DNA of 64,000 nt. Origin: Paracyclopina nana. Lineage: Eukaryota; Arthropoda; Copepoda; Cyclopoida; Cyclopettidae. Of the stretch, positions 921 to 47,131 are shown piece after piece. The translations under genes were made by a program, and so were the position numbers. The stretch is from contig JAGUCH010000003.1 of assembly GCA_019096065.1 (NCBI GenBank), positions 6,138,001-6,202,000 of the forward strand, given 5' to 3'. A model generated the notes under the pieces. That model did not search any database. It saw only the letters and a program-made list of their open reading frames with translations, and was not told the DNA's origin. Within the stretch, counting starts at the first letter, position 1; each line of letters starts with the position of its first letter.

Positions 921-3900
921 TTACATATCATTCGCTGTTATTTTGTAGGCTTCCAGATCAATTTTGTGACGTAGCAATCCAGTCAACAGAACCTCTCGGT
1001 CGACAATTGAAATGCCAGGCCTTATCTTCGACATGATAGCTTTGTCAGCCTCGCAAGAAATGACAAAAGTGGCATCGTCTGGTTTTGTCGGCATTCTGCT
1101 CAAGTATAAACCACCCGCACAAGACACGATTTCTGATGAAAAACAATTTTATGCTGGAGGCGTTGCTTTCAAACCAAATTTAAAATACCTTTGAGCTCAA
1201 TAGGGCTGGGCAAAACGTTTGAGGTAGCAAAAACTTTATAACCATCGAGGAGCTTTGATTTGCAAGCATTTGCTAAAGTGGAATGCAGCTGAAACTTCCA
1301 CTTTTTCTCGGACTCTTCATCTTGCATCAAGTACTTCCATGGATCTGTAAAAAAAGCGTCTTGATAAAAGTTCGGTTTTTTAAACAAGCATTCATTATAC
1401 TACCGAGAAAAGTCCTCGCCATCTTACTTTGCGTAAGCCATATTGGTGACACAATAGGAATGCCTCTACCCAAAATGCAAAGAAGTTTGGCTGTTCTTCG
1501 AATTTTGTCTGTGACAAGGACTGAACAGTCTCTGACATTTGAGGTGACAACTCCGCCAAGTTCCTTAATAAGCTTGATATCTTGAGGGCTTTCGTAGCCA
1601 GTGAACATAACAACAGGTTTCGAAGCTGCCTTCCTCTTTAGGGGTGATTTTGCACTTTCGCTCATGATAGACAAGTTCATTTCCGTGGCTATTCTTTTGG
1701 GGGATTTTTCGGTTGCTGCCAACGAACGACTTTTCTTTAAAGGAGCTTCCTGAGGTTTTGGGATACTTAATTTAGATTTACTTTTGCGCGATGTGATGCT
1801 GGCATTAGAGAAAGGTGAGCTATTCCGAGCCTTTTTCATTGGACTTTCAACAATAATTGAATCACTGGCACCTTTCTTTCTTTTCATTCCTCCTGGCGAT
1901 GTGATTCGATTATCGACTGATTCTCTTTTAGCGCTGAGTGTTGCCTTCTTTTTGGGCGTTTCATGTTGGGCATACTTTCTGTTAGGTGCCCTTAATCGTT
2001 TGCTGCATCTGGAGCCGGCATCTTCGTTGATAGGTGACAGTACATTCGGAAGATCGATCTTTAATTTCTCGAGCTTTACGGTAACGTCTGTCGTAATAGA
2101 GGACTTTGGCAAGCTTCTGAGAGACCGTCTCACATCGTTTGGAGCTGATTCAGTGAGTGAACTTTTAGATTGCTCAGGATTGCTTTTTCTGTTCATTCTT
2201 TTGAGAGGTGAGGGCTTCACAACGACTTTGGTGGCTGTAACCCTAGTCGGCCTCTGACACTTGGATTTACCTTCCGTGGTAGGTTCACCATCATCCGCAA
2301 CACTCTCAACTTTCACTACGGACTTTTTCTGCGCTCTTCTGGTAGAAGTGCGCCTTCCCGTTTTTTCAGGTTCATTTTTGATAGTAATATCCTTTTCTTT
2401 GACTGACCGAGTGTTGCCTCGCTCACCATCGCAATCGAAGCCTTCATTATTCTCCACCCTAATTGGTATCTGTACCAAACTCTTATTCCGAGTCGACTTC
2501 CTAACGGCACAACTATTGACACTTGCAACAAATTTTTCACCCTTGTTGGCACTTGATCGTGAGCTACTTTTACCACGCTGAGGTTTCACGGGAGATGCTG
2601 GCTTAGGCTTGATGTCTTCACTTTTCACCTCGTTGGTACTTTTGCTGACCGTTACAACTTTCAAAGAAGATTTATTTTCCACACTAGCCTTCTTTACGCT
2701 TTTGACCGATTTCTTGACTGCCTCGAAACTGTCTTCAGCTTTAACACAGGCCTCAGATTTACGACCACTCCGCCTGACGGCAGTGCTGTCTGGCTGCACA
2801 TCCAACTTGGGATCATCACAATCAGGTTGCTTTTTTTCTTCCTCAATGTCAGAATTTTCATTATCCGCCTTGAATTTTGCTAAAGCTGGTTCAGCAACTT
2901 TAATTTCCGCATCCTCATCAGTAGCTTTGCTTGCGTTACCAACATTCTCTTCCACGCCCTGGTCAGCGTTCAATTCCAGATCAGGCTGCGGTGCTATCGA
3001 GTCATCTAAATCAGGAATATCATCGCCGTTTTCATCATCTGAGCTCCATGCATGATTGTCTCCATCGCCATTTGGCTCTTCAATGTCTAAAAAGGTGGCT
3101 ATTTCAATTGCCTTTTTAGGTGATGGGGACTTTCGATCATCTGCGCTTTTGGCAGGCTCGCATGGTTTTGCTGGTGATGCATCCGCACTTTTGGAAGGCA
3201 CACACGCTTTTACAGGCGATGGTGGCAAGGAATCTGCTTCGTCTTCTGAGCCACTACCCTTGTCTGACTCGGCATCAGCAAGAGACTGAGTGGAGGCTAG
3301 AAACTCTTCGCTGTTGCCCTGTACATTTTGGCTGGTGGGGTTTTCTGGTAAACTCTGAGATAGGGAGGGTGTTGATTGCAAGCCATTAGCACCATCGTCA
3401 TATTCCTCCCCCGTTTTATTGGATTCTTCGCTTATCGTTGAGACAGATGGCGGCTTTACCAAAATTGATGCACACACCTTAACATCTTCTTGTGATCCTG
3501 GTATCAAATCAACGGAAGAGCAGTCGCTATCAGAATCGATCCTAGTGGAGTCATCTCTTCCGTTGGTTTGCTCATCCCCTAAGCTCATTTGAGTGGCACA
3601 ATCAAAAACGTCCTCATTATCTGAAGGGATTTCATCTTCAAGAGCTGTGTTATGTTCCACCACATCATCATGCTCAATGATAAGGTCATCTTCGTCTTGG
3701 CCAGCTAATAGGTCTTCCGAGTTGTTAGAATCATCTCCATCCGTGGTAACTGCTTGTGTGGGCTGGTCCAGGATTTCAGTAGCTTGCTCTAGTGTCTCAT
3801 CAATTTCCATTTTTTGAGAGCCTTTGGTTTGATTGTACGTCACTTGATGCGAGCCATTGCTAGCCACGATGGATTGGGTCTCTTCATTTAGGAGGCCTTG

Positions 3901-25307: not shown

Positions 25308-25378
25308 GCCTTGCCCAGCTTATTGAATGCACACAATCACCAAAATCAGCTCACCCAAAAAAGCTATGCTCCCAACCC

Positions 25379-26620
25379 CAAATTTCTTGTCCTCATGTGC
25401 TCAGGGGGTCAATGATCTGCTAAAATTCTCGCGCGGGGTCAATGACCTGTTTAAATTCTCGCGCGCCCTCTATTCAGCGCTTTAATGCCGGCCCGCCAGG
25501 AAAAATCTTTTTTCTAGCCAAATTACTTGTCCTCATGTGCTCAGGGGGTCAATGAACTGATTTAATTCTCCGGCGGGGTCAATGACCTGTTTAAATTCTC
25601 GCGCGCCCTCTATTCAGCGCTTTAATGCCGGCCCGCCAGGAAAAATCTTTTTTCTAGCCAAATTTCTTGTCCTCATGTGCTCAGGGGGTCAATGACCTGT
25701 TAAAATTCTAGCGCGGGGTCAATGACCTGTTTAAATTCTCGCGTGCCCTCTATTTAGCGCTATAATGCCGGCCCGCCAGGAAAAAACTTTTTACTAGCCA
25801 AATTTCTTGTCCTCATGTGCTCAGGGGGTCAATGACCTGTTTAAATTCTCGCGCGCCCTCTATTTAGCGCTTTAATGCCGGCCCACCAGGAAAAAACTTT
25901 TTTCTTGCCAAATTTCTTGTCCTCATGTGCTCAGGGGGTCAATGACCTGTTTAAATTCTCGCACGCCCTCTATTTAGCACTTTAATGCCGGCCCACCAGG
26001 AAAAAACTTTTTTCTTGCCAAATTTCTTGTCTTCATGTGCTCAGGGGGTCAATGACCTGTTTAAATTCTCGCGCGTGGTCAATGACCTGTTTAAATTCAC
26101 GCGCGCCCTCTATTTAGCACTTTAATGCCGGCCCACCAGGAAAAAACTTTTTTCTTGCCAAATTTCTTGTCCTCATGTGCTCAGGGGGTCAATGACCTGT
26201 TTAAATTCTCGCACGCCCTCTATTTAGCACTTTAATGCCGGCCCACCAGGAAAAAACTTTTTTCTTGCCAAATTTCTTGTCCTCATGTGCTCAGGGGGTC
26301 AATGACCTGTTTAAATTCTCGCGCGTGGTCAATGACCTGTTTAAATTCACGCGCGCCCTCTATTTAGCACTTTAATGCCGGCCCACCAGGAAAAAACTTT
26401 TTTCTTGCCAAATTTCTTGTCCTCATGTGCTCAGGGGGTCAATGACCTGTTTAAATTCTCGCGCGCCCTCATTTCAGCGCTTTAATGCCGGCCGGCCAGG
26501 AAAAATCTTTTTTCTTGCCAAATTTCTTGTCCTCATGTGCTCAGGGGGTCAATGACCTGTTAAAATTCTCGCGCGCCCTCTGTTCAGCGCTTTAATGCCG
26601 GCCCGCCAGGAATAATAGTT
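25379..26620 (+). repeat. Left array of 110/140-bp tandem repeats (10 copies)
   Basis: The marker CCTCATGTGCTCAGGGGG recurs at 25391, 25531, 25671, 25811, 25921, 26031, 26171, 26281, 26421 and 26531, that is at 140- or 110-bp steps. The 140-bp form contains an extra 30-bp copy of the GGTCAATGACCTGTTTAAATTC segment. The last unit is broken by hairpin insertions and the array resumes at 27690. Confidence 0.93.
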
Positions 26621-26811
26621 CCCTACCGCCTCAGCAAAAGTTAGACCCCAAGAAAAATCCCTGAGAGGTCGGGAAAAATTTGAGAACCGAGCAACTATTT
26701 TTTATCCGAGCGCAGCGAGGAAATGAAAAATTGTGCGAGGTTCTCAAATTTTTCCCGGCCGATCAGGGATTTTTCGAGGGGTCTAACTTTTGCTGAGGGT
26801 GGTAGGGATTC
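26621..26811. repeat. Hairpin MITE inserted in a 110-bp unit
   Basis: The ends CCCTACCGCCTCAGCAAAAG and CTTTTGCTGAGGGTGGTAGGG are inverted copies. Arms of ~90 bp continue inward through AGTTAGACCCC and GGGAAAAATTTGAGAACC, leaving a short loop. Confidence 0.8.
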
Positions 26812-26814
26812 ATT

Positions 26815-27688
26815 TTTCTCTTAACAGTAACCGAAAATCCCAGGTTGGTTGAAATTCCAAGACAAGCTCGACTTAATATTTCGATCTATTTTAAAGTGAC
26901 CTAAGTCAACTCGCGCTCGCTTGGCTGGACTGCCCACTGACTCATCAAAATTCAGCACTCTACTGGCTTCTAGCTGAATACTGAAACTCAATTAGAAGTC
27001 AGAATCACCGCCGAATGACGCCATTGAACATTTTTAACCAGTGATGTGATGTAAAATTGGAAAACCAAGACTCCCGCACCTCAGAGTGACTCCCGCCCCT
27101 GGCAGCGTCTCCTGCACCCGGCAGCGTCTCCTGCACCCGGCAGCGTCTCCTGCACCCGGCAGCGGCTCCCGCACCTGGCAGCGGCTCCCGCACCCGGCAG
27201 CGTCTCCCGCACCCAGCAGCGTCTCCCACACCCGGCAGCGTCTTTATATTCAAATTGAGGCTGCTCAAGACCAAGACGGCAATTTGAAGCTCCCGCACCC
27301 AGCAGCGTCTCCCGCCCCCGGCAGCGTCTCCACACCCGGCAGTGTCTCCACACCAAGCAGTGTCTCCACACCCGGCAGCATCTTTAACTGCAAATTGAGG
27401 CTGCCCAAGAACAAGACGGCAATTTGAGGCTCCCGCCCCCGGCTGTGTCTCCCGCACCCGGCAGCGTCTCCCGCACTTGGCAGCGTCTCCCGCACATTGT
27501 GGCTACTCAAGACTATGAATTCGGTGGGAAAAAAATTCGCCTGGTGATTTTTTTTCCCGGGAAAAAAATTCCCCTGGTTAATTTTTTTCCCAATGTGTTT
27601 GTTTACATTTCGTCTTGGTAGAGAAATAAACTGAGAACTATTTGGAAATTGAAACCTAACCAGGGATTTTCGGTTACCGGTAGAGAAA
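26815..27688. mobile_element. TIR element carrying a GC-rich minisatellite
   Basis: GTAACCGAAAATCCCAGGTT near 26827 pairs with the inverted AACCTAACCAGGGATTTTCGGTTAC near 27653-27677. The 110-bp repeat that was interrupted at ~26615 resumes right after it, so this segment, together with the adjoining hairpin, is an insertion. Exact ends are uncertain by several bases. Confidence 0.65.
27085..27500 (+). repeat. 19-bp GC-rich minisatellite
   Basis: Units of the form GGCAGCGTCTCCTGCACCC are repeated with variation, in three blocks separated by TTCAAATTGAGGCTGC-like spacers that are themselves repeated. A 19-bp period is not a multiple of three. The long frames through it (for example 27005-27457 minus) shift from unit to unit and are not genes. 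Confidence 0.85.
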
Positions 27689-27689
27689 A

Positions 27690-27968
27690 AACTTTTTTCT
27701 AGCCAAATTTATTAACCTCATGTGCTCAGGGGGTCAATGACCTGTTTAAATTCTCGCGCGCCCTCATTTCAGCGCTTTAATGCCGGCCGGCCAGGAAAAA
27801 TCTTTTTTCTTGCCAAATTTCTTGTCCTCATGTGCTCAGGGGGTCAATGACCTGTTTAAATTCTCGCGCGCCCTCTGTTCAGCGCTTTAATGCCGGCCCG
27901 CCAGGAAAAAACTTTTTTCTAGCCAAATTTGTTAACCTCATGTGCTCAGGGGGTCAATGACCTTTATT
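27690..27968 (+). repeat. 110-bp repeats, resumed (3 copies)
   Basis: The marker CCTCATGTGCTCAGGGGG recurs at 27716, 27826 and 27936, all at 110 bp and in the same orientation as the left array. The last unit is cut off at the junction with the 158-bp satellite. Confidence 0.9.
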
Positions 27969-31285: not shown

Positions 31286-31379
31286 ATTGAAAAGCTTAGT
31301 AGTAAGCAACTGACGCTTCTCAAAACAGATTGGCTGGCATTTAATCGCTTTTGTGAGGGCGCATGATAATTTTAACAGG

Positions 31380-32449
31380 TCATTGACCCCCTGAGCACAT
31401 GAGGACAAGTTTTGTAGCAAGAAAAAAGTTTTTCTGGCAGGCCAGTATATAAGCGCTTAAATGAGGGCGCGCGAGAATTCAAACAGGTCATTGACCCCCT
31501 GAGCACCTGAGGACAAGAAATTTGGCTAGAAAAAAGTTTTTTCCTGGCGGGCTGGCATGAAGGAGCTGAATAGAAGGCGCGCGAGAATTTAAACAGGTCA
31601 TTGACCCCGCCGGAGAATTAAATCAGGTCATTGACCCCCTGAGCACATGAGGACAAGAAATTTGGCTAGAAAAAAGTTTTTTCCTGGCGGGCCGGCATTA
31701 AAGCGCTGAATAGAGGGCGCGCGAGAATTTAAACAGGTCATTGACCCCGCCAGAGAATTTAAACAGGTCATTGACCCCCTGAGCACATGAGGACAAGTAA
31801 TTTGGCTAGAAAAAAGTTTTTTCCTGGCAGGCCGGCATTAAAGCGCTGAAATGAGGGCGCGCGAGAATTTAAACAGGTCATTGACCCCCTGAGCACATGA
31901 GGACAAGTAATTTGGCAAGAAAAAAGTTTTTTCCTGGCAGGCCGGCATTAAAGCGCTGAAATGAGGGCGCGCGAGAATTTAAACAGGTCATTGACCCCGC
32001 CAGAGAATTTAAACAGGTCATTGACCCCCTGAGCACATGAGGACAAGTAATTTGGCTAGAAAAAAGTTTTTTCCTGGTGGGCCGGCATTAAAGCGCTGAA
32101 ATGAGGGCGCGCGAGAATTTAAACAGGTCATTGACCCCCTGAGCACATGAGGACAAGTAATTTGGCAAGAAAAAAGTTTTTTCCTGGCAGGCCGGCATTA
32201 AAGCGCTGAAGTGAGGGCGCGCGAGAATTTAAACAGGTCATTGACCCCCTGAGCACATGAGGACAAGTAATTTGGCAAGAAAAAAGTTTTTTCCTGGCGG
32301 GCCGGCATTAAAGCACTGAAATGAGGGCGCGCGAGAATTTAAACAGGTCATTGACCCCCTGAGCACATGAGGACAAGTATTTTAGCAAGAAAAAAGTTTT
32401 TTCCTGACCAGCCGGTATAAATGCGCTTAAAAGAGGGTGCGCAAGGATA
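31380..32449 (-). repeat. Right array of 110/140-bp repeats (9 copies, inverted)
   Basis: GAGCACATGAGGACAAG, the complement of the left-array marker, recurs at about 31393, 31501, 31641, 31781, 31891, 32031, 32141, 32251 and 32361. It is the mirror image of the left array and also contains both the 110-bp and 140-bp forms. Confidence 0.92.
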
Positions 32450-32451
32450 GA

Positions 32452-32546
32452 CAGGGCGCGATCTGAGTTTTTTGTTGCACTTGCCCAGCTTGGTTGCGGG
32501 CGAGCCAATTTCGGGGATTCTGTGCGCTGGATATCTGGCCACTGCC
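32452..32546 (-). repeat. Right terminal inverted repeat of the foldback element
   Basis: Inverted copy of 25213-25307, perfect over the outer 51 bp (32496-32546), followed immediately by the second GATAAATC. Confidence 0.88.
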
Positions 32547-33212: not shown

Positions 33213-33457
33213 TGTAGCAGGGAGCGTGTCGGCCTACGGGTCGACCGCTCGCTGCGCACGCTCGCCTCGGGCGCGCGGTAGTATAACGAGTAGTTTAGTG
33301 TGATCATCAGTAAAGGAAATAAATTCACCGTATTGACACGTGTTGTCTACGGCCCAAGATTGACCTCTGCTAGCCTTCCAGGCCCGTCCCCGCTAGACGT
33401 AGCCTAGATCCGAGTATTGGCTTGATAAGTCACAGTTGTATATCTCGACCTACTACA
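33213..33457 (+). repeat. 5' LTR
   Basis: 245 bp, TGTAG...CTACA, differing from the 3' LTR at three single bases. The segment after CCTCGGGCGCGCGGTAGTATA probably carries the transcription start. Confidence 0.96.
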
Positions 33458-33459
33458 GA

Positions 33460-33476
33460 TGGCGCGGGTCGTTGGA
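33460..33476 (+). promoter_or_regulatory. Primer-binding site candidate
   Basis: TGGCGCGGGTCGTTGGA starts 2 bp after the 5' LTR and begins with TGG, the complement of a tRNA CCA end. I cannot name the tRNA. Confidence 0.6.
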
Positions 33477-34290
33477 CCTGTGATTTCATCACACCACTAC
33501 TAAGTACATCCTGCCGGAAACTAAGTGCTAAGTATACAGTACAATAAAAAGGGAAAATTAAATAATGTGCTGCTCAATGCTCGAAAGTCAACTGCCACAT
33601 ATGAACCTACGTTCAAGCCACGATATGGAGATTAAAAAGAGATTGCAATGCTAAAGCATAAAAAGGCAGTTGACTATAAACGGTGCTGATGGCAAGAAAG
33701 TAATAAGAGCTCAGACCAGAGCAACTAAAGGGGACAGAAATCACTCTGCAAAGGTTGCAGCTGCAGGTGATTAAATAACAATCAAAAAGCAATTGATGTG
33801 GGGGGACAATGGTCGAATGGCCGGGACTGCTAACACCAGTTGCAAGCTATTTTGATTCCAGTGAATGCTGGAGCCGGCCACCCCACAAAAATGTGCAAAT
33901 AAAAGGGGTTGAGCAGAAAGAGTAAGCTGATCACGTGGTGACCAAATGACCCGGCAATCTGGTCAACAGCTGTGAGCTGTTATGAGCTGTCACCATGTGA
34001 CAATCATTGTTCAAATAAACAGATCGACGAGAAATGTGACACCGACGTGGCATTTTGGTGGTCAGCAAATAATATTAATCAATGTCACGCCACCCCTTTG
34101 CAGCAGATCCTGCGAGCGATGTGGCGGATATATAAAGCCACGCTGGTGGGGAATAGCTATCAGTTCCTTTCGAGCTTTCCCCCGGATAACAGTACTAGCA
34201 ACACACTTGCAATTAAAACTAAACCACCATGGTAATTATAACTTAGTCACACTCTCGTTGCAATCGTAGCTTACTCTTCTCGCCCATATA
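33477..34290 (+). other. 5' leader of the Gypsy element
   Basis: About 800 bp without a credible frame. A stem closes GTGGGG (near 33799) with CCCCAC (near 33888) around a tRNA-like A-box motif (TGGTCGAATGG). This could be an RNA structure in the leader. Confidence 0.4.
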
Positions 34291-34678
34291 CAGTCTGTCC
34301 GTTCAAAATTGGACGGTATGGGAATCTAAACTTTGTGTCACATATTCAAGAAATACAGGACTTACAAATGATATCGTTAGAAAGATTGAGTCTTTCCCCA
34401 TCTTTTTTGTAAAAATAGAAAAATCAATTTAAACGGGAAAAACCGAGAAAATTCAATTTTCTCAAGGCAACCCAAAAAATTGTCACGAAAAAAACTGATG
34501 CATCATTTATTTTTTGCTGTCACGCGGAATTCATATTAATATTTTTCATTTTGTTTGAAAACAAAAAAGATGTCCAAAGGTTCAAGTTTTCCAATGATAC
34601 CCATTACGCCTCGAAATTCATGAATTCATAGCACAAACTTTTGATTCCCGCACCGTCCAATTTTGAACAGACAGACTG
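34291..34678. mobile_element. Tc1/mariner-like MITE (388 bp) in the Gypsy leader
   Basis: The ends CAGTCTGTCCGTTCAAAATT and the complement of AATTTTGAACAGACAGACTG are inverted repeats of ~27 bp with one mismatch. TA lies on both sides (34289-34290 and 34679-34680). CAGT termini and a TA duplication are typical of Tc1/mariner. There is no coding capacity. Confidence 0.88.
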
Positions 34679-34740
34679 TATAGTCCCAGCCATCAGCCCA
34701 CGATATAGCTGCTGCGGTAGCCCAAGAGGTCAACCACCAA

Positions 34741-35673
34741 ATGAGGGCGAACGCTGCCATCCAGCGTCGACCCCAGCAACTCCAGCTGCTCCGTGAGACG
34801 GACAGCCGATCCTTCCAGCAATGGCGCATGCACGTTGAGTGTCAATTTGACACCTCGGCGGAGCCGGAGCGCATGAAGAAGACCCTGATCAAGTCATCCA
34901 TCATAGGCCTCGCACTGGAGATGATCAACTCCATTGACAAGAAACCCGACGATGACACCTACACGTTCAGACACTATCTTGACGACCTCAAGCGGGCCTT
35001 CGTGGACGAGTCAGCCCAAGAGGCTGCAAGGGTAGCCTACGACACCGCCGCCCAGGACCTGCACGAATCCGTCATGACATGGGCGGCCCGCCTCAAATCA
35101 CTCTACCTGAGGGCTTTCGCCAACGATGCGACGCGATGCGCCCAAGTCGAACGGGACCCCGAGATCATACGGAAGTTCACCATCCATCTGCGGGACCCCC
35201 AGACGCGTTGGCTGGTGATTGCCAGCAAGTACAACACCCTGGCAGAGGCCGCCGCTAATGCGTCCTCTAAGGAATGTCTGGTCGGGTTGGCCGGTGGTAA
35301 AGCCAACCCTCTGGGACAAGCGGGCATCATGCAAATGACCCTGGACGCCCCTCAGGATCAACCCGACGTGGCCAGAATCATCGTGGCCCTAGGCGACCGA
35401 GCCAATATGAGATGCTATGGCTGTGGTGGCTACGGCCATCTCAAGGCGCAATGCACCAACAACCGTCAACCCGCCCAACGAGGTCGAGGGGGCTTCCGGG
35501 GCCGAGGACGTGGAGGCCGCGGCCGAGGCAGCGGCGGGCCGTACTCAACAGCGCCGCCCGTTTCGCCGCAAGAGTATAACAAATACTGCAATGCGGCCAT
35601 CGCGCACGTGGCCAACACCTCTGTGGACGCCTACACCTGGGAGGCGCCAAAAAACGGAGCCAGCCGGTCCTAA
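34741..35673 (+). CDS. gag: Gypsy gag polyprotein
   Basis: The open frame gives 310 residues. A helical capsid-like region is followed by one CCHC zinc knuckle (CYGCGGYGHLKAQC, about residues 222-235) and an RGG-rich nucleic-acid-binding tail. This is the standard layout of LTR-element nucleocapsid. The frame is intact. The MITE in the leader ends 62 bp before the ATG and blocks any N-terminal extension. Protease lies in another frame downstream. Confidence 0.92.
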   Translation: MRANAAIQRRPQQLQLLRETDSRSFQQWRMHVECQFDTSAEPERMKKTLIKSSIIGLALEMINSIDKKPDDDTYTFRHYLDDLKRAFVDESAQEAARVAYDTAAQDLHESVMTWAARLKSLYLRAFANDATRCAQVERDPEIIRKFTIHLRDPQTRWLVIASKYNTLAEAAANASSKECLVGLAGGKANPLGQAGIMQMTLDAPQDQPDVARIIVALGDRANMRCYGCGGYGHLKAQCTNNRQPAQRGRGGFRGRGRGGRGRGSGGPYSTAPPVSPQEYNKYCNAAIAHVANTSVDAYTWEAPKNGASRS

Positions 35674-35739
35674 GGGACCGGCAGTCAACTGAACCCTCCA
35701 TCACCTCGCCAAACACCTTCACGGCTGCCAAAGCCAAAT

Positions 35740-36055
35740 CATTCCTCACCCATATTTCCAAAATAAACAAATCTTATGTGTCAAAGTTCCAATCCGAATT
35801 AACAACGTAAAGGCAAGAGCCCTCATCGATAGTGGGAACACGTGGAGGTCTGTCATCTCCTCCACACTTGCTGCAAAGCTGGGGTTCTCCAAAACCCAAC
35901 TTTCGCCTTTGGCCGGGGAAACCGTCAACACGGCTGGAAAGAACCAATCGCTGGAGATATTGGGCAAAGTACCCAAAACTCTTATGCTCCACATTGGTAC
36001 GTACCCGCAACCTTTCAAGTTCCGGCCCGCCGTTATAGCCAATTTGACCATGGAC
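35740..36055 (+). pseudogene. pol: Gypsy protease domain, 5' fragment of pol
   Basis: The frame contains ALIDSGNTW, a retroviral-type aspartic protease active site (D-S-G), followed by a flap-like glycine-rich region. The frame differs from gag, so a frameshift or separate initiation would link them. The reading is cut at 36055 by the 1228-bp insertion and continues in the same frame at 37284. Confidence 0.82.
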
Positions 36056-37283
36056 CCCACCGGAATCTTCGAATTGTACATAGTTCAAATTGAACTGTGA
36101 CACAACTGTGGAAATTTTGAAATGTACACAGTTAGGTAAGGGTTGTTATAGAAATGTGACAGATCTGTGAAATTGTTCTGTACATAGAAGAAAAATTTTG
36201 AAATGTGAACTAACTGTGTACATTTAGAGCACAATATGTCGATTTCTTATTGTTTTAGAAATGTGACAAGCAACTGTGACACAACCATGCATATATCAAT
36301 TTTTTTGTTCTCTGAAACTACTATGGAGCAAAGAAGCTGGAAAATGATGATGTTGCTTTAAAATGTGAAGTAACCATGATTTGATTTGTGACTGATGTAT
36401 TAAATAACCATGAAATTTATTCATTTTGAATCTATGAAATAACTTTTTTTCAAGTCATGAAACTACCATGCAAAATACAATAATTTTAGTAGTTTTTCAG
36501 TTACTAAAAATGTTCAGAGATGGCGGTGTCATCTTAGCATTACATCTTTGATTGAAACATATTACACAAATCCATTCACATGTACTATTAATTGGAAAAC
36601 TCAATTGAGAGTATCCTATGAAGGCAATTCCTTAACTGTTCTAATGCTATCAATTTATCTTTTATTACAAAAAACAAGTAAACACAAAAAATGCTCAATA
36701 GGCTTATTGGTTGCCAAAATTGATGTAAGCTCATTATTTGATTATTATTCTTAAATTAAACAGGCCAAGTTTAATCTGAACTATATCATAACATGTGATG
36801 TCATTGACATTGATATTTTGGATTAAGACTGAAGATGAGTTCAGGTACATACATTTGTGCTGATAGGCCAATATTTATGAGGAATATCCCTTGACTCATT
36901 CAAGCTTGAGGTCACAATTCCAAATTTTGAAATGTGAAATGACTGTTGCTCTTAATTCTTTAAGTTATGCTTGCATGGTTGTTTAACACTTTGGTTACAA
37001 TTTGTATCACATCTACATCACAGATCGGATCAGACAGAAATTTTTGGCCGGACTGTAACCTGAAATAACCATGAGAACAGATAAATAACAGTACCAATTT
37101 TAATAGTTGTTTAAGAGTACAGTAACATAACGTCTTAACAGTTGTTTACCCTTCTATGTCATAGAAGGCTTTTGAAATGTAAGCGTCACATGAACCTAAT
37201 GTAAACAGTAACATCACATTTTTGCTTTCGCGACCCTTCTGTTCTGTGACACAAATGTGACTGAACTTAACAATTCCGGTGGG
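36056..37283. mobile_element. 1228-bp non-autonomous element with 4-bp target duplication, family unknown
   Basis: The termini CCCACCGGAAT and ATTCCGGTGGG are inverted repeats, and GGAC stands on both sides (36052-36055 and 37284-37287). The flanking pol sequence is in the same frame on both sides, which confirms the borders. The interior is AT-rich and non-coding, with many variants of CTGTGACACAACTGTG and AAATGTGAA. The CCC terminus recalls piggyBac, but the target is not TTAA. I cannot place it in a superfamily. Confidence 0.83.
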
Positions 37284-37577
37284 GGACATCAACCTGTCGG
37301 GGCCCTTCATGAAGGCTCATGATATAGATCAGCTTCATAGTGCCAACTCCTTGCGCATTCAAGGACGAATGATAAAGTTGGCAGGGGGGACACTAGACAA
37401 AAACGATAATCGCGCAATCGATGTCCATGCAGTCTACGTGCGGGGCGAAGCAACAGTAGCCCCAATGTCCTGTTGCGCCATCCCTGCGAAAATCCCTACT
37501 TGGCACCGATCGCCACACGTAGATGGAATCATCGAGGGATCAGGGGACTTTATGGAAGCCACAGAGCTCCACCCATG
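37284..37577 (+). pseudogene. pol: Gypsy pol fragment between protease and RT
   Basis: The open stretch encodes the protease-RT linker, with NLSGPFMKAHDIDQLHS near its start. It is cut at 37577 by the Transib insertion. Both borders are in frame with the neighbouring pol pieces. Confidence 0.8.
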
Positions 37578-37612
37578 CACAGTGGGGCAGATGCTATCCG
37601 AAAATTCGCATT
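37578..37612 (+). repeat. Transib terminal inverted repeat, distal to the transposase start
   Basis: 35 bp, perfect inverted match to 40748-40782, beginning with the heptamer CACAGTG. Confidence 0.95.
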
Positions 37613-38060
37613 CAATTTTTTTCCGTCAAGCGGGATAGGCCTAAAAATAGGCCTCAGAATTCTTAAAACTTTTTTAAACTAAATTTGTTCCCATCAAACT
37701 TTAGATGATTTTTTGGAAAGTTGAGACCCTAAAATTTAGCTTTTTAAGTATGATAGTTGATTTTCATCAAGCTCAAAGGCCCCAAAAGATGGCTTGAATA
37801 GCTGGTACTTTTAAGCACTTGGTGCGCTGCTCCGGATCAATTCGTTTTGACAATTTTGGTGAAATTCAACAGTAAACAGGCTAATGATGATTTCAAAATT
37901 GGTTTTGAGTGCTACTTTTTGCAACTTGTCAAGAAAAAGTCATTCAAAGTTAGAGGTTGGGAGGCATTTTTTATTTATAAATTTTCCGTCAACTAAAGTC
38001 AGCTGCTCAGCTGAGTTGACTCATGAAGTAGTCACCGCCGTCGTTTGCTGAAGTCAGCTC

Positions 38061-40327
38061 TTAATTTTCGTCGTCGTCATCATTTTCATCACATATCGCC
38101 GCAACATCACCATTTTCATCAATATCATCATTGTCAGCCTCATCCATGTCATCATCAGAGCTAACAAGTAAGTCTACTTCGGGAGCTTTGCACAATGCCA
38201 AAACCTCGGGAGGAATGGGCCTCTTTGATCTCATTTTTGATTTCTGTGATGCAAAATAGCCTAATATTATTGGATCTGATCTATCCATAGCCCTATTGAA
38301 GACGTCTTGTGCCCTTTCCTGACGAGACATTTGCCTAGCATGATGCAGCTCTGAGTATTTTATATCCTTGTTCGCTCCCTCTGATCCCTCTTCTGATAGC
38401 ATTCCACAGGTAATGGTTGGTGGCAATGCTCTCAAAATATCCTCTCCATGGACTAGGATTTTGTGCACAGATGGTGGGATTTTGTACCAGCTGCAGTGCT
38501 GCAGGTAAATGCTGAAGATCTGCTTGCACTTATCACCAAACAAAGCTGGATCCAGAGGCAAATTGCAGGCCATTGCAATCCAGATGAAATGCAGTCCCTT
38601 GACTAGCTCAACTGGCACATCACAAACCTGGGCAAAAACCTCCGAATTTTCGTAGCATCTGAAAACAGAAGTCCAAGATGAAGTTCTAAGCTTTATTTAT
38701 TAATGCAAAACTAACATTAAATGCAATTTACCTTCTAGCTGTATTTCCAGTGTTGCTTGTGCCTGCACCACTATCTCTGGGCTCGCCAATCCTTACCCCA
38801 ATTGCTTCTAGGAGCTTATCATGGATCACCTGTTTCATTTCCTTCCTGAGTTCTCTATTTATGGCACCTCTGCACTGCCATTTCTTGAACTTTTGGTTGT
38901 AACCCATGTTCAAGATGAACTCGAATGACCTAAGCCCAAAATGAAGTATGGACAAGCACATAAGATTGTATGCCTCTGGATTGATGACAAAAATCTGCTC
39001 TGGGTCGGACATTTGGCAAGGTGTGGCATAGCAAAAAGGACAACTTTGAGAGCTTGGATTGTCCATCCTATGGTTGATCACTTTTTGGTCACAAAGGCAG
39101 AAGAAACCTTTGAAGTGGATCTCTACTTGAGGAATCCATTGAAAAGGGGTAAGTTCTTCTTCTTCTTTCTTGAGCCTTTCAATCTCAGTGTCCAAATTCT
39201 CCTTATTTTCAGGGACAAACCAATAACAGAGTGGCCTGCAAGCTTGAGGAGAATTGGCCAATCCATTTGTAAAAAGTAGGCATGACTTTCCATTGCACTC
39301 TGCTATCATTTGCAATGGAACCATGTGGCTAGCAAGTAGTGCTCCATCTTGGGCTGAAGAAGAGCTAGCCTGATTGAACTGGCCATAACCACGAGATCCA
39401 TCAAGGCCATATTTATAGATGAAAGTGACCTTGACATGGCCTTGCAGAGAAAGGTCGTACAGCTTCAAGTTTGTGTCCTTATCATCCAAAATTCGCAGTG
39501 CTGTGTGTTCCAATGTGGCTTTTAGGGAAGCACAGACTTTATTCTCAGAATAATATATGCCAGTCGGCCTAAGCATTGGCTTTGCTGCTTGAATAGTCTT
39601 GTAGCTAAAAGGAATATCAATGAATCACTTTTCAAAGGGAATGGCCTTTGATTAATTACCTTGGCACAATTTTCCTCTTGGCATACTTATTCACATCCGC
39701 CCTGTACTCACAAAACCTCTTACGAGAATAACGACGCTCAAACAGCACAGCAAGGGCAACATCTGGAGTCATTTCTGGATCAGCTTGAAGCTGCTCAACT
39801 ACGAATCCAGCATCATAATGGCCCATTTTTCGGAAATTTTGTGCTGCAGCTTTGATGACAGCTCCGTCGTGCTTAGCCGAGGCTCTAACCTGCGCAGCTC
39901 CTCGACACTGCTGTGAGATGCTCAAGGAACGAAATGAGATTCTCTTTTTCTTCTTTGGAGGAGCTGATTCGGCCACAAACATGGCATCAGAGTCACTATC
40001 TGGTCCAAGGTCTGCATCAGGAACATTTTGCTCAATCTGAACAGGCTGGTCAGAGTTGCAAAATTCAAAAGAAACTTCAGTGGCAAAAAATTCCGAGTGA
40101 TTTGCCACCATTTTGGCTCGGATCCGATGAGATTTCCTCCAAAAACGCAATAAACTCTCCGAGAAATAGATGACAAACTTTTTGATCTCTGAAAGCTCTT
40201 CATCTTTGAGTTCATCTTTGGTCTTATTCAGTTTAGAAAGCAGACATTTTTCCACATTTTCGCTGAAATTGGGGTCGGATGGAGAAGAATCAACTAAGTT
40301 CCACAAGTCAAGACGATTGAAAGCCAT
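38061..40327 (-). CDS. Transib transposase, RAG1-core-like (3 exons, intact)
   Basis: Exons 40327-39660, 39604-38732 and 38658-38061 join in phase to 712 residues. The RNase H-fold catalytic acids are recognisable: D~291 in KYGLDGS (RAG1 D600), D~395 in FCLCDQKV (RAG1 D708), and the glutamate of SEEGSEGANK at ~603-607 (RAG1 E962). The zinc pair C411/C414 (CPFC) just after the second Asp and H579/H584 (HKILVH) before the Glu have the spacing of the RAG1 ZnC2 and ZnH2 elements. The C-terminus is a run of Asp/Glu/Asn. There is no RING or long RAG1-type N-terminal region. In the family this enzyme nicks next to the CAC heptamer and forms hairpins on flanking DNA, as RAG does. No RAG2-like gene is present. 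Two short introns (55 and 73 bp) suggest it was expressed in this host's splicing system. Confidence 0.93.
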
Positions 40328-40747
40328 TTTAGATGTGCTTCCAAACTTGCGAGTCACGGCGAATCAGCAGCAGCCAAAATCACGGAGATTTTACCGCCAA
40401 AAAAGGACGACGGGATTTTTACGCTTTAAAGATATATTTCTTACTCTCACATACAAAATAAAAAGGCATAATATCACTTAAAAGCCACTCAAATTCCACA
40501 ATTTGCTTTTCAAACGTCTATCTCTCCTGCTGCTGTTGTTGTGGTAGTTGTTGTTGTCATTTTGCTCAGCACTCAGTTATAATAGCATCAACATTAATTT
40601 ACGTCATCTACAGCGTTACCAGATCAGAGCAGCGCGACCAGAGTAATTTTACTCACATGAAAGATGCCAACTTATTTCCGATTGATTATTAACTAAAAAG
40701 TGTCATTTTTAAAGGCTGAATTAGCTTATTTTTCTTGCGCGTCTTCA

Positions 40748-40782
40748 AATGCGAATTTTCGGATAGCATCTGCCCCACTGTG
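40748..40782 (-). repeat. Transib terminal inverted repeat, proximal to the transposase start
   Basis: 35-bp inverted copy of 37578-37612, ending CACTGTG and followed by the duplicated CCATG. Confidence 0.95.
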
Positions 40783-43700
40783 CCATGGCAGCGGGCCCTC
40801 ATCCGGCCCGACGAGAAAGGCAATTGCTTCGTTGGGGTCATCAACACCACTGCTGAGCCCCTCATCATCCGTCACAACACCAGGTACGGACAGGTGGAGA
40901 GTTTGAGACGGGTACCAACCGTGGCCAAACTGGCGGCCGGCAGCTACGTGGCCAAGCTCGAGGGGGCCCAAACTAAGGCCCAGAGCCCGTACACAGCGGA
41001 AATGGCTCAAACCTTCATTCAAGAGTTCGGGCTAGAGGACAATGCCCTTCTGAACACCCCTCAACTGAAAGCCCGTACCTTGGCACTGCTACTGCAATAC
41101 CAGGACACCTTCAGCCTCGACGGGTCCTCGGGCCAGACTGACCTGGCCGAGCACCGCATCGATGTCGTCCCGGGTACCCGGCCCATCAACATCCGGCGGA
41201 GGCCTGTCAACCCGCATCTGCAGACGTCACTAGAAGAGCAAGTCCAGAAGTGGCTCAAGGAAGGCATCATTGTCCCTATACAGTCACCTTGGTGCGCACC
41301 CCTGGTCCCGGTCACTAAGAAGAACGGGAAGACCAGGTGGTGCGTCGACCATCGCGCCCTCAACAAGGTGACCATTGTCGACACGCATCCCATCGGCGAC
41401 ATCCGGGACAACCTCAATCGGCTGGCCCACTCGCAGGTATTCTCCACCTTGGATACCACGGGGGCGTTCCACCACGTCCCCGTGCGGGCTGAGGATGTGC
41501 CCAAAACGGCCTTCGCCGCCAACAACTCCACCTATGCGTTCGCATACATGCCATTCGGGCTCACCAACGCACCCCGAACGTACGCCCGGCTCATCCAGCG
41601 GGTCTTGGAAGGGATTCCTTACGACATCGCCCTGCCATACCTCGACGACGTCTTGATCCACAGCCGCGACGTGGAGTCCCATTTTAACCACCTACGGCGG
41701 GTACTGGACGCCCACCAGCGGGCTGGCCTCAAATTACAGCCATCCAAGTGCCACCTGTTCCGCCGCCGCATCACGTACCTGGGGCACGTCATCACCCCCG
41801 AGGGCCTTTCCGTGGTCCCCGAGTACATCGACGTGGTCAAGAAATGGCCCCTACCGCGCACTCGGCGGCAGCTGCGCATCTTCCTTGGGAAATGCGGCTA
41901 CTACCGATCCTTCATCAAGGACTACCAGAAGGTGGCCAAAGCCCTCACGGACAAACTCAGCAAGGACGAGGATGTCCCTGACACAGCCGAGTTCGAACCG
42001 CCCCTGGAATACGTTGCTGCCTTCGAGGAGCTCAAGAAGCGACTCTGCACGGCACCCATCCTGGCCTTCCCCGACTTCGAGAGCCCTCAGCCGTTCATCC
42101 TGGATACCGACTGGAGCGGCGACAATCAATGTGTGGGGGCCATCCTGTCCCAAGTGCAAGGGGACGGGAAGGAGCGGGTTATCCTCTTTGGGGCCAAGAA
42201 GCTGACACGGAGTCAGGCCAACTACTCCGCCACTCAAGGGGAACTCGCCGCCGTTATCATCTGGCTACGCAAGTGGCGGTACTACCTCCAGTACCGGCCC
42301 TTCATACTCCGCACGGACCACGCCGCCCTGCAATGGATCCGCACCATGGAGGAGCCCCGCAGCATGCTCGCCAGATGGCTGGAAACCATAAGCCAGTTCG
42401 ACTTTAAGGTTGTCCACCGAGCCGGGACCAAGCATGCCAACACCGACGCCCTCAGCCAGGCCAAGCACGTCACCGACACTGAAGGGACTGATGTGTCTAA
42501 CGAGAGCTGTGCAGGCGTCCAAGCCGTGGTAGCCTCCGCCGAGGCCGCTCTTGATGTCGGCAACTCAGCGGAATGGGTCCAAGGACAGACCGAGGACGAA
42601 GACCTGCAGCTCATCCGACAGCTGATTAGTCAGCAAAGCCGACCGGGCCCGGAGCACAAGGAGGCGGCCTCCCACCGGGGCAAGATCCTGTTAGGCCTTT
42701 TTGACAGCCTCTACCTGGACGACCAAGGCCTGCTCAAGTACAAAAAGGAGGAAGGGCAAGGCCGCGAGACCCGCCACCTGGTTATGGTCCCCCGATCATC
42801 TGAAGAAGGCTTGGTGAGGCATGTCCATGAAACCATGGGGCACCAGGGCAGAGACACCACTGTCGATCGGGTCTCGCGCCGATTCTTCATGCCTAACGCC
42901 ACCCGGGTGGCTGCTGAGGTCGTAGCGACCTGCCGTACCTGCCAGAAGCATCAGCCCGAGAGCGACGACCAGCGGCATTCCTTGCATTCCCACCGGGCAG
43001 GTTACCCCTGGCAGCGGGTCGCCATTGACTACGTGGGACCACTCAAGCCGCCGGTCGACGGCCATCAGTACCTGTTTACCGTACGCGACCTCTTCAGTCG
43101 ATGGGTAGAAGCATTCCCGTGTGCTTCAGCCAATGCCGACACGGCCGTGAGGTTCCTGACCTCAGAGATCATCCCGCGCTATGGACTGATGGAAAACCTT
43201 CACTCTGATCGGGGCACCCACTTCACCGCGGCCCTGTTTCAACAAGTGGCCAAGGCACTGGGCGTCCGGCACTCTACTACGCCGGCCTACAACCCCAAAT
43301 CCAACTGGGTCGAACGAGCTCATCGGGACCTCAACGGCCTTCTGGCCAAGCTCGTTTGCGGGTGGCCGTCCCGCTGGAAGGAAGTACTACCGGTGGCCCT
43401 GTTCATCATGCGCACCACCAAATGCCGCATGACTGGCTATGCCCCTTACGAATTGCTCTTCGGACGATCCGCCACCTCGCAACTGGACCTGCTGTTTGGG
43501 GACCCACAGCCGCTGCTAAGAGAGGCCTCCAAGGCCGGGCAAGTTGCCCAAGCCCTCAAGGCCAGGATCAAGGCAGCCCATGAGTGGGCCAGGAAGAACA
43601 TGGCCACCTCGATCAACCGGCAAAGAATGGCCTACCACAAGGACAAAACAACATACGTCCCTGGGCAACAGGTGTGGCTGTACACGCCCACCGTCGCCCG

Positions 43701-44349
43701 GCACATCTCCAAGAAGCTCCAGACCTTCTGGTCGGGCCCCTGGACCATCCTCAGGAAGGTCAACGATGTGACATTGCCCGACCCTTCATGGGTTCGAAAG
43801 AAATCCGAAGTGGTATCCATTGATCGGCTGAAACTATACCGGGCAGCGGCCGAAGATGCCAATGATGGCACCCATGGCAACCCGCCGCCGGCCAACGCAG
43901 ATCTGTCCATGCGGGGCGACGAATTCACTGAGGACGTTGCACTTCCCTCAGATGATGAAGGCAAGATCGAACTCCCAGACTCAGGCCATGTACCGCCACC
44001 GCCGCCGACGGCACCGTCGCCCCGAGAAGCGAGATATCGCAAACGAAGGACCCAGGCGGAAATGCTGCAACAAGAAACGGCAGATTTCCTGGGGGCCAAT
44101 GTAGATATCGCACCAGGAGTCTCATCTCCCGCAACGAGAACACGAGCTCGCTCAGGCCAGCAATCAGATCAGCCAGACCCGGAGTTGCCTCCGCTGGCAC
44201 CGATCAACATGCCGCCATACAGACCACTGATGGCACAGCCAACGGTCACTATGCCACAATTCAGGCCACTGCTTGACGTGAGCGATTCTGAAAATGAAGA
44301 TTTTGCTACACCGACAAATTCGGGTAGCACATCAAGCACTGAACAATAA
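40783..44349 (+). pseudogene. pol: Gypsy pol: reverse transcriptase, RNase H, integrase (3' part)
   Basis: The long frame resumes after the Transib and runs to the stop at 44349. RT shows the fingers/palm motifs and the catalytic YLDD box at ~41638-41649. RNase H follows, with FILDTDWSG. The integrase has an HHCC zinc region (~42826-42950) and the DDE triad: AIDYVG ~43024, HSDRGTHF ~43201 and NWVERAH ~43306. A GPY/F-type module (SGPWTI) lies at ~43732. A Pro/Ser-rich C-terminal extension of ~170 residues follows. The frame itself has no stop or shift in this piece. The gene is broken only by the two upstream insertions. Confidence 0.94.
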
Positions 44350-44536
44350 TATGACGAGCAGCACAATGAAAGACGGCCACAAAATTTTGGGGGCCCCCCT
44401 AAGTATACTTTGAAAATTCTGTGGCTTTAAGCGCAGAACTGTAGCACATAAAAATGAAATTTAAAAAAGCACTAAACCGGCAGGAGTACACTATAGAAAG
44501 GCAGCATGTCAACACGCTTCCTTTACTCTCTTTTCC
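44350..44536 (+). promoter_or_regulatory. pol-env junction with env 3' splice acceptor
   Basis: A pyrimidine tract ending TCTCTTTTCCAG (AG at 44537-44538) lies 5 bp before the env ATG at 44544. Env would be made from a spliced mRNA, as in retroviruses and errantiviruses. The donor was not located. Confidence 0.6.
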
Positions 44537-44543
44537 AGAAGCA

Positions 44544-46820
44544 ATGTACTTCACAATACTGATGACGTTCACACTACTACTCGAGGTGCCGAGCACACAA
44601 CCCCGGCCTCAGCCTGCTCTACAGGAAGGAGGGGATGGACCACCTGAAGACCCGGCCGCCACCTTCACGGTGTTTGACTGCGAGTCACCAAAATCAACCC
44701 ACGAGAGCGTCGACTTGAATGACCCGGACGAATGCGATGATATCGGCACTACCTATGAATCGGCTGTCAACATCACCGTGCAGATGTTGCAAACTGCGAC
44801 GACCAAACCCGTCGCCGCCCACCGTTGCCACATGACCCTGACCCGCGAAGTGACCAGATGTGGATTCGATAGCGTCAGTTACGGGACTCAGATCGTTGCT
44901 TACCACCAGCCCTATACCGTGTCGCCCCAGGCCTGCCGCAAGGCGGTGGAAAGGGGCTACCTGATCGTCGAGGGCCAACGGGTGAATGTGACCCTCAACG
45001 TGCCCGCCAACCTGGCTTACTTCTTCGAGGAGGCCTTGACGGAGACCACCGATGCAGGACCATGTCATTCAGCCACAACGGGGTCATGTATCACCGCTCT
45101 TACGAGCAGACCCGGATCGACGCCCTCGTCACCGCTGTTTATGGGAAGCTACACACCAGCTCCGGCCGAGTGGTGTTCGACAATCACATCGTGGCCAATT
45201 ACCGGGACAAGATCGTCCATGACACGCTCGAAGGCACCATGGTATGGGAAGCTCATGACACCACCTGCATGGAAGAGACCTCTGAGGTCTATCAAGGGCC
45301 CGCTTCACTATACCCGCACCAGAACTCCACCATGTTAGGTCAGGTGGGGGATCTGCTCCTGATTGCCCGCAAGGAGGAATCCAGGTACGCAGGATTTGTC
45401 CTTAAGGGGGTCCAGTCGACCTGCCAGCGGCGGGTCTTCCGGACTCAGCTGAGGGACTTTGCAGTCGTCCTTCTCCGCCCGGGCGAAGCTCCCATTGCCG
45501 CGTCAACCCACCTGACGGAAGAGGTCCACCACGCTCACGTGCAGACCCAACTGGCTTTCCTGCACGCCGAGCACGCCCTGCATCTCGACGACCGGTTCAA
45601 ATTCCTGCAGGACCTCATCTGCAAGAATGAGCGGAGCATCCTGCACACCAAGCTGCAGGACATGGCCAGCGGTGGGTCCTCCTACGCCACGCTCGACTCC
45701 CACGGGCCCGGCCAATTGGTCACCTGGGCTGGGGCTGTAGCCTACATCACCAGCTGCTACCCGATGCAGGCCATGACGCGTGCCTTCCCTAACTGCACGC
45801 AGGAGATCCCCGTGCTGGTCGGGAACCATTCCCGGTTCGCGGATCCCCTCTCCTTCATCTTGGTAGACCGGCCCAGCATCATACCCTGCGACGCCATCAC
45901 GCCTGTGAAGTGGAGGATCCAGGGACACTGGATGTGCGCTACTCCTAGCATCCACTCCTGCACGCCGCCATCGCAATTGGACCCCACCTCCGATCGACAA
46001 CATGGACGCCCCTACGAGATTGGTCGGGGCCTAGGAGGCGGTATCTACTCCGCCCAGCAACAGGCCGAGCACGCCCTCTACCTGCAGCTGTACCACGCGC
46101 GAGGCCGTGGTCACCACTCTGACGTCCAATGTTCTAAGGAACAGCTTCGCACGCGGATCGGGGGCCACCACCCTCTGGTCCGAGGACGACATCGACATGA
46201 TGGTTGTCCAGGTGGGCAACGCCCTCATCCCTTTCTTTTCGACCGTGGGGAAATACTGGAGCTACATGACCGGAGGTTTGGTGATCCTGGGCCTCATCAA
46301 GATCATCCTAGGCTCTATCATCCGTATGATTATCCTGTATCGCCGCCAAGGGCTTGGGTGGTGGTTGATGTACGGCCTGTGGCACACTGCCTTCATGGCT
46401 GTCGAACTCCCCTGGCGCATGGTAGCCAACCTGGGTAACGACGGACCCTTGTTCCCCGGCGACGACGATGAGGACGATGGCCACCCGGATTTCCAGCGCC
46501 GACCCCGCTGGAAGCGAGACCACCGAGAACGAGCGGCCACCGAGCTCAGCGACTTCACCGTGCAAGATGGTTCGGAAACGGGAGAGAAAGACCCTTTGGA
46601 TGCCTCGGACAAGTCGACATCGCCCCTCAAGGCTCTCCGCCGGTGGACGTGGCCCGACAAGGAGACCCAGGCGTATCAGGACCTCCAGGCCCAGATCCGT
46701 ACGATTCACCAGCAATACACGGATCTCTACGGGGTCCTGCAGCAGACACTTCCCCAGGTGCGAGCGGTTGACACAAATGGGACCCAGCCCAGCGCTCCCG
46801 CCATGGAGGGTCCCCCTTGA
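44544..46820 (+). pseudogene. env: Envelope glycoprotein gene, broken by two frameshifts; chuvirus-GP-like
   Basis: Three overlapping open segments in different frames make up one glycoprotein: ~44544-45060, ~45062-46100 and ~46100-46820. The first starts with a hydrophobic signal peptide and is Cys-rich. The second carries the paired cysteines and the CTQEIPV, FADPLSF and GHWMCATP stretches. The third has a membrane anchor (~46262-46340) and a ~150-residue charged cytoplasmic tail. N-glycosylation sites are present (NIT, NST, NHS). Cysteine pattern and motif order resemble glycoproteins of chuviruses (class III-type fusogens), which have been captured by several arthropod LTR elements. That identification is from memory and needs a search. 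The two shifts inactivate the gene unless they are assembly errors. Confidence 0.7.
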
Positions 46821-46874
46821 GGCTCCCTGCTAGACCTGACTCAATCCGTCACTGCGAGGACACAGTAACCTTCT

Positions 46875-46886
46875 AGCGTGGGGTGA
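46875..46886 (+). promoter_or_regulatory. Polypurine tract
   Basis: TAGCGTGGGGTGA-type purine-rich stretch directly left of the 3' LTR, the normal position for plus-strand priming. Confidence 0.6.
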
Positions 46887-47131
46887 TGTAGCAGGGAGCG
46901 TGTCGGCCTACGGGTCGACCGCTCGCTGCGCGCGCTCGCCTCGGGCGCACGGTAGTATAACGAGTAGTTTAGTGTGATCATCAGTAAAGGAAATAAATTC
47001 ACCGTATTGACACGTGTTGTCTACGGCCCAAGATTGACCTCTGCTAGCCTTCCAGGCCCGTCCCCGCTAGACGTAGCCTAGATCCGAGTAGTGGCTTGAT
47101 AAGTCACAGTTGTATATCTCGACCTACTACA
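46887..47131 (+). repeat. 3' LTR
   Basis: 245 bp, three substitutions from the 5' LTR (about 1.2 percent), followed by CCCC, the second copy of the target. Confidence 0.96.

Follow-up and report, generated by a model that had tools for sequence, protein, structure and literature searches.

RAG1, the enzyme that cleaves antibody genes, descends from the Transib family of transposons. Here we describe a Transib element in a 64,000-nucleotide stretch of the copepod Paracyclopina nana (contig JAGUCH010000003.1, positions 6,138,001 to 6,202,000; in the following the window) and address the origin of the two-part recombination signal sequence (RSS) from transposon ends. HzTransib from Helicoverpa zea (PDB 6PQN series) uses the catalytic residues D126, D225 and E436 and, like RAG, leaves a hairpin on the flank and a blunt cut at the transposon end, as described in PMC6941560. 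The Transib families reported by Kapitonov and Jurka in 2005 have a heptamer-like tip and an inner motif that was compared with the RSS nonamer (cited via PMC8355894 and PMC6941560), and for Transib ends elsewhere PMC8355894 gives symmetric spacers of 20-22 bp or a 12/23 asymmetry. RAGL and RAG produce target-site duplications (TSDs) of 5 bp according to PMC7204232, as seen with the window element. The word Transib occurs in a copepod genome paper (PMC7878743), and no priority for Transib in copepods is claimed here.

The element in the window is a genuine Transib transposon and a newly found member of this already known superfamily (Table 1). We hold with high confidence that it is a cut-and-paste DNA transposon with a RAG1-core-like transposase of the aspartate-aspartate-glutamate (DDE) type, and that it landed within pol of a gypsy-like retroelement which is itself young. 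An initial annotation, made from the letters alone, had reported perfect 35-bp terminal inverted repeats (TIRs) starting with CACAGTG, the exact heptamer consensus of V(D)J recombination, and a 5-bp duplication CCATG. Ends and duplication are established, as all of these were recovered at both ends and on both flanks, and the two TIRs diverge directly beyond position 35. CACAGTG by itself is unremarkable, with 4 occurrences in the window versus about 8 expected at equal base frequencies. TIRs starting with CAC together with a 5-bp TSD were found for the window copy and for 10 of 12 autonomous copies of the assembly. All genome comparisons were made in this one assembly (92 Mb, 10 contigs), in which copies are named by contig and position (C1, C3 etc.).

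The three exons on the minus strand are joined by GT-AG introns to 712 codons plus a stop, and the phases close as initially read. An alternative acceptor would yield 721 amino acids. The reading of 712 residues was preferred because the same junction is present in C1:10056787, which shares intron 2, as well as in paralogs lacking that intron. Membership of the family was proposed before any profile search and is now established: the protein matched HzTransib with an E-value of 5.4e-54 for the single sequence and of 4e-149 by profile, and the family profile reached RAG1. D291, D395 and E607 align with D126, D225 and E436 of HzTransib, which identifies the catalytic glutamate, previously placed in the motif SEEGSE, as its final letter. 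These residues as well as the zinc pairs C411/C414 and H579/H584, both correctly named from the start, did not vary in any of the 12 aligned proteins.

The insertion site was equally clear. Transib interrupts the pol frame of the retroelement between ELHP and WQR. The retroelement has Pfam matches to reverse transcriptase, RNase H and integrase, and its long terminal repeats (LTRs) are identical at 242 of 245 positions. Because the transposon sits in the pol of so young an element, it inserted later than the retroelement. A search of this genome with the 294-bp flank (37284-37577) scored 40 of its 65 candidates, and each of these 40 matched; the flank itself is among them, and three others are 98-99% identical. 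When joined, the flanks continue without interruption in these three gypsy copies, with a single CCATG and agreement at 151/151, 150/151 and 149/151 bases. The empty site is thus established, and the description of the element as nested in a young retroelement holds.

Table 1. Features of the Transib element and its host retroelement in the window
Feature	Position	Strand	Remarks
Whole Transib element	37578..40782	.	3205 bp, re-derived from sequence
TSD CCATG, left	37573..37577	.	One CCATG at the empty site in three other gypsy copies
TSD CCATG, right	40783..40787	.	One CCATG at the empty site in three other gypsy copies
Left TIR, 35 bp	37578..37612	+	CACAGTG, spacer and CCGAAAATTCGCATT; identical to right TIR at 35/35
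Right TIR, 35 bp	40748..40782	-	35/35 match to left TIR
Heptamer CACAGTG, left end	37578..37584	+	
Heptamer CACAGTG, right end	40776..40782	-	
Distal A-rich block, left end (TIR positions 21-35)	37598..37612	+	Common to the ends of non-autonomous family M1; A-run likewise placed in other families
Distal A-rich block, right end	40748..40762	-	Same basis as left-end block
Transposase exon 1	39660..40327	-	Codes for the N-terminal region and the start of the core (residues 1-222, part of 223)
Intron 1, 55 bp, phase 2	39605..39659	-	Place and phase kept in 10 of 11 intron-bearing full-length models
Transposase exon 2	38732..39604	-	Holds D291, D395, C411, C414
Intron 2, 73 bp, phase 2	38659..38731	-	Shared only with the C1:10056787 model
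Transposase exon 3	38061..38658	-	Holds H579, H584, E607 and the stop
Junction after residue E185	39772..39773	-	16-17 residues of close paralogs absent here
Host LTR retroelement, gypsy-like (reverse transcriptase, RNase H, integrase)	33213..47131	+	LTRs 33213-33457 and 46887-47131

Spliced alignment of the assembly yielded 12 Transib transposases of full length, plus a single relic whose frame contains 7 stops. Ten of the 12 models were clean, so the window copy does not stand out in the way the initial annotation had singled it out. A 37-nt gap required near the end of the C1:9565701 model is implausible and probably reflects a frameshift, and the model of C1:10056787 has lost about 14 residues at intron 1; for C1:10233617 and C7:3721858 the two ends were not both located. 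A search of the genome, as initially proposed, recovered related Transib families, while the window element has no second copy of high identity, its closest autonomous relative reaching 70% at the DNA level. The non-autonomous family M1 shares the subterminal parts of the window element, mostly at 79-82% identity. Ten M1 copies were examined (incomplete or divergent places such as C3:715558-716164, C2:6591307-6604046 and C7:792090-792410 were left out), and 9 of them have a perfect 5-bp TSD. Two, C1:13601781 and C3:2476588, are identical at 611 of 611 positions on different chromosomes with different TSDs. Likewise, the autonomous copies C1:9565701 and C9:3657915 agree at 3172 of 3179 ungapped positions and have different TSDs. 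Furthermore, a pair of copies on C3 showed a nonsynonymous divergence (dN) of 0.026 versus a synonymous divergence (dS) of 0.179 over 722 codons; comparisons with the window copy were synonymously saturated and left out. From the identical M1 copies, the near-identical autonomous pair and the dN/dS of the C3 pair we concluded that a working Transib enzyme existed recently in this genome. Recent movement is established for these other members; thus the label 'recently active' is supported for M1 and for the C1:9565701/C9:3657915 pair, and less so for the single window copy.

Several further observations concern the Transib complement of the genome. The copies C3:3749015-3752359 and C3:10177911-10181251 are near-identical over the first 1600 bases and at about 2600-3200, with only 167-193 matches per 200 in the intervening blocks; this mosaic suggests gene conversion or recombination between families, as judged from the alignment. 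A second non-autonomous family, M2 (C1:2932286-2932908 and other places), has the block AAAAGTGGCGT and two different spacers. Among the autonomous copies examined none had ends matching M2, and at C2:16054854-16057558 two M2 ends are separated by 2.7 kb, with no transposase match there. At C3:5169625-5170100, C5:238593-239079 and C8:5066328-5066813, paired CACAGAA ends are separated by about 0.5 kb; they show the same spacing difference of 1 nt as the autonomous C5:4446638 and are probably its non-autonomous derivatives. Two wider searches for protein relatives gave 3 matches each, none of them close, among the 7994 best-sharing candidates scored. In viral contigs 17 pattern matches were obtained, none a relative, and carriage by viruses is unsupported.

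The initial annotation called the window copy intact. Its frame is indeed otherwise open, with catalytic and zinc residues preserved, but a stretch of 16-17 residues following E185, which eight close paralogs keep in the alignment, is absent. Three more distant proteins also have residues at this place, so the gap is in-frame versus all 11 others; moreover, the local DNA alignment of the window copy to its nearest relative ends there. The copy may therefore be a non-autonomous or weakened passenger: its transposase would have lost these residues where N-terminal region and core meet, and another element's enzyme would have moved it. Its copy number of one fits this possibility as well. On the other hand, there is no other visible source of the enzyme: among the autonomous copies with ends found, the window copy is alone in having the block CCGAAAATTCGCATT that also marks the M1 copies, which moved recently. 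The strength of this argument is limited since identity between M1 and the window copy is only about 80% and the ends of two autonomous copies were not both found. We consider the passenger explanation a substantial possibility, yet not the favored one. Under the favored reading of an autonomous Transib transposon the window protein would work despite the missing residues. Domestication of the transposase by the host would agree with an open frame with introns, but is very improbable for a single copy with complete TIRs and TSD in a young retroelement, with empty sites in other copies. Assembly artefact or contamination, a concern since the data rest on one assembly and one that had been raised for TIRs and duplication, is practically negligible because the flanks match three separate empty sites and related full-length and non-autonomous elements are spread over several contigs of the same assembly.

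Next to the transposase, the ends were compared across families. Most Transib ends in this genome consist of CACAG followed by TG or AA, a spacer of near-fixed length and variable sequence, and an A-rich block. A search of seven regions, which required no more than a terminal CAC, its inverted counterpart and a TSD, yielded three further autonomous copies that have CACAGAA ends and the block AAAAACTCGC at the same distance, with one end being 1 nt shorter; a universal CACAGTG was therefore rejected. The mean information per position was 1.73 bits at positions 1-7, 0.88 at 8-20, 0.47 at 21-23 and 1.34 at 24-34, calculated from 11 ends of 7 autonomous copies after exclusion of near-duplicates, one single-end copy and the divergent C1:2177476 ends. 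The pattern CACAGTG-N{4,17}-AAAANTNGCRT, which leaves the gap free, gave 108 matches versus 2 for the reversed control. Among the 100 matches listed the gap was exactly 16 in 93 and 17 in one real end, with 6 others scattered. A second free-gap pattern, CACAG-N{6,19}-AAAAACTNGC, gave 109 matches versus 8 for the control and was discarded as spacing evidence of its own, because about 40 of 100 listed came from a single repeat that looks unrelated and has a different gap, the remainder being scattered. This repeat, with CACAGCCGGGGCCAGGCCCCAAAAACTAGC or close variants, is present at C1:1262036 and other places. M1 provides a natural test of the spacer: its left and right ends differ in the 13-nt spacer but retain heptamer and block, and the family nonetheless expanded. 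This suggests that the letters of the spacer matter little.

At both ends the stretch most similar to a nonamer is separated from the heptamer by 11-14 nt, mostly by 13. A nonamer like ACAAAAACC was tested at 12/13 nt in three ends. The window copy matched 5 of 9 letters, which 848 of 10000 shuffles equalled, and the claim of a strict nonamer was dropped for it. The left end of C1:10056787 matched 7/9 (128 of 10000 shuffles) and the right end of C3:3749015 matched 6/9 (777 of 10000). A 12/23 asymmetry is absent, the two ends of the window copy being equally spaced and the ends of other block-carrying copies differing by at most 1 nt. Comparison with a profile of the RAG1 nonamer-binding domain was no better than with shuffles, of which 127 and 79 of 200 reached its score, and none of 12 sequences showed significant homology to this domain. 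Among the structural rows of HzTransib, RAG1 and RAG1L, 2 of 35 extend into the nonamer-binding region with an rmsd of 11.2 and 12.4 Å; many chains lack the domain. The element holds no convergent RAG2-like gene and has no room for one, since no plus-strand frame in it exceeds 116 codons; 10 of 12 plus-strand frames of at least 60 codons were scanned and had no Pfam match. A genome-wide search with a RAG2 profile found no match, but the control matched nowhere either, and genome-wide absence is not claimed.

Taken together, the transposase would pair the two transposon ends and read the CAC at the tip plus the A-rich block at a near-fixed inner distance. By analogy with HzTransib and RAG, cleavage would occur at the heptamer with a hairpin left on the flanking DNA, and the duplications point to insertion with a 5-bp stagger. 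The N-terminal region that is absent from HzTransib could read the A-rich block. An extended proposal is that the ends of this lineage are two-part signals of a CAC heptamer, a free spacer of about 13 nt and an A-rich block, read by this N-terminal region, and represent an RSS forerunner of symmetric 12-type that does without RAG2. We regard this proposal as rather doubtful. As for the main reading, of an inserted transposon whose enzyme recognizes its ends in this way, several points weigh against it: the dominance of gap 16 largely reflects copies of the same families and not independent events; the divergent C1:2177476 family lacks the A-rich block and its two ends have a different second stretch in common, TCTTTTTCTCCA, from about position 20; and the window copy is single and lacks residues that its paralogs keep, which makes its own activity putative.

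The surroundings of the element were also inspected. The pol of the host retroelement is broken twice, by Transib and by a 1228-bp insertion at 36056-37283 with the ends CCCACCGGAAT/ATTCCGGTGGG and a duplicated GGAC. The latter has 10 other full-length copies in the genome at 94-100% identity and is thus probably a young non-autonomous DNA element. An envelope-like region of the retroelement at 44445-46820, which spans more than one reading frame, matched Pfam Monjiviricetes_fusion, a viral fusion glycoprotein, in two pieces (E-values 4e-15 and 2e-8). Satellite-like repeats with 110- and 140-bp spacing are located at 25378-27963 and 31332-32471 in opposite orientations. For a ribophorin exon of the window, the first relative listed under an organism name was from Oithona nana, likewise a copepod, at 74%.

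With respect to the origin of the RSS the genome offers related Transib families with differing heptamers (CACAGTG, CACAGAA), differing spacers and a conserved inner block. Non-autonomous elements tolerated an altered spacer and still moved. Together, these families and elements are ready substrates for the reading of a heptamer-spacer-A-rich signal, and could show whether Transib enzymes read such a signal and by which part of the protein. Compared with vertebrate RAG1 and with RAGL/ProtoRAG, the window transposase has the same core fold, catalytic residues and zinc pairs, while the element differs from the RAG1/RSS and RAGL systems by equally spaced ends and by the lack of a RAG2-like gene. 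HzTransib likewise shares the RAG1-core-like fold, the DDE and the zinc residues. It differs from the window copy, which has two introns and about 165 N-terminal residues without counterpart, as D126 aligns with D291. The families of Kapitonov and Jurka, as given in the sources cited above, have spacers of 20-22 bp or 12/23, in contrast to mostly 13 nt in both ends here. Finally, the heptamer CACAGTG of V(D)J RSSs is present alike at both ends of the window copy, with CACAGAA instead in three paralog copies, and each end of the transposon resembles a 12-RSS in its geometry of heptamer, about 13 nt and A-rich block.
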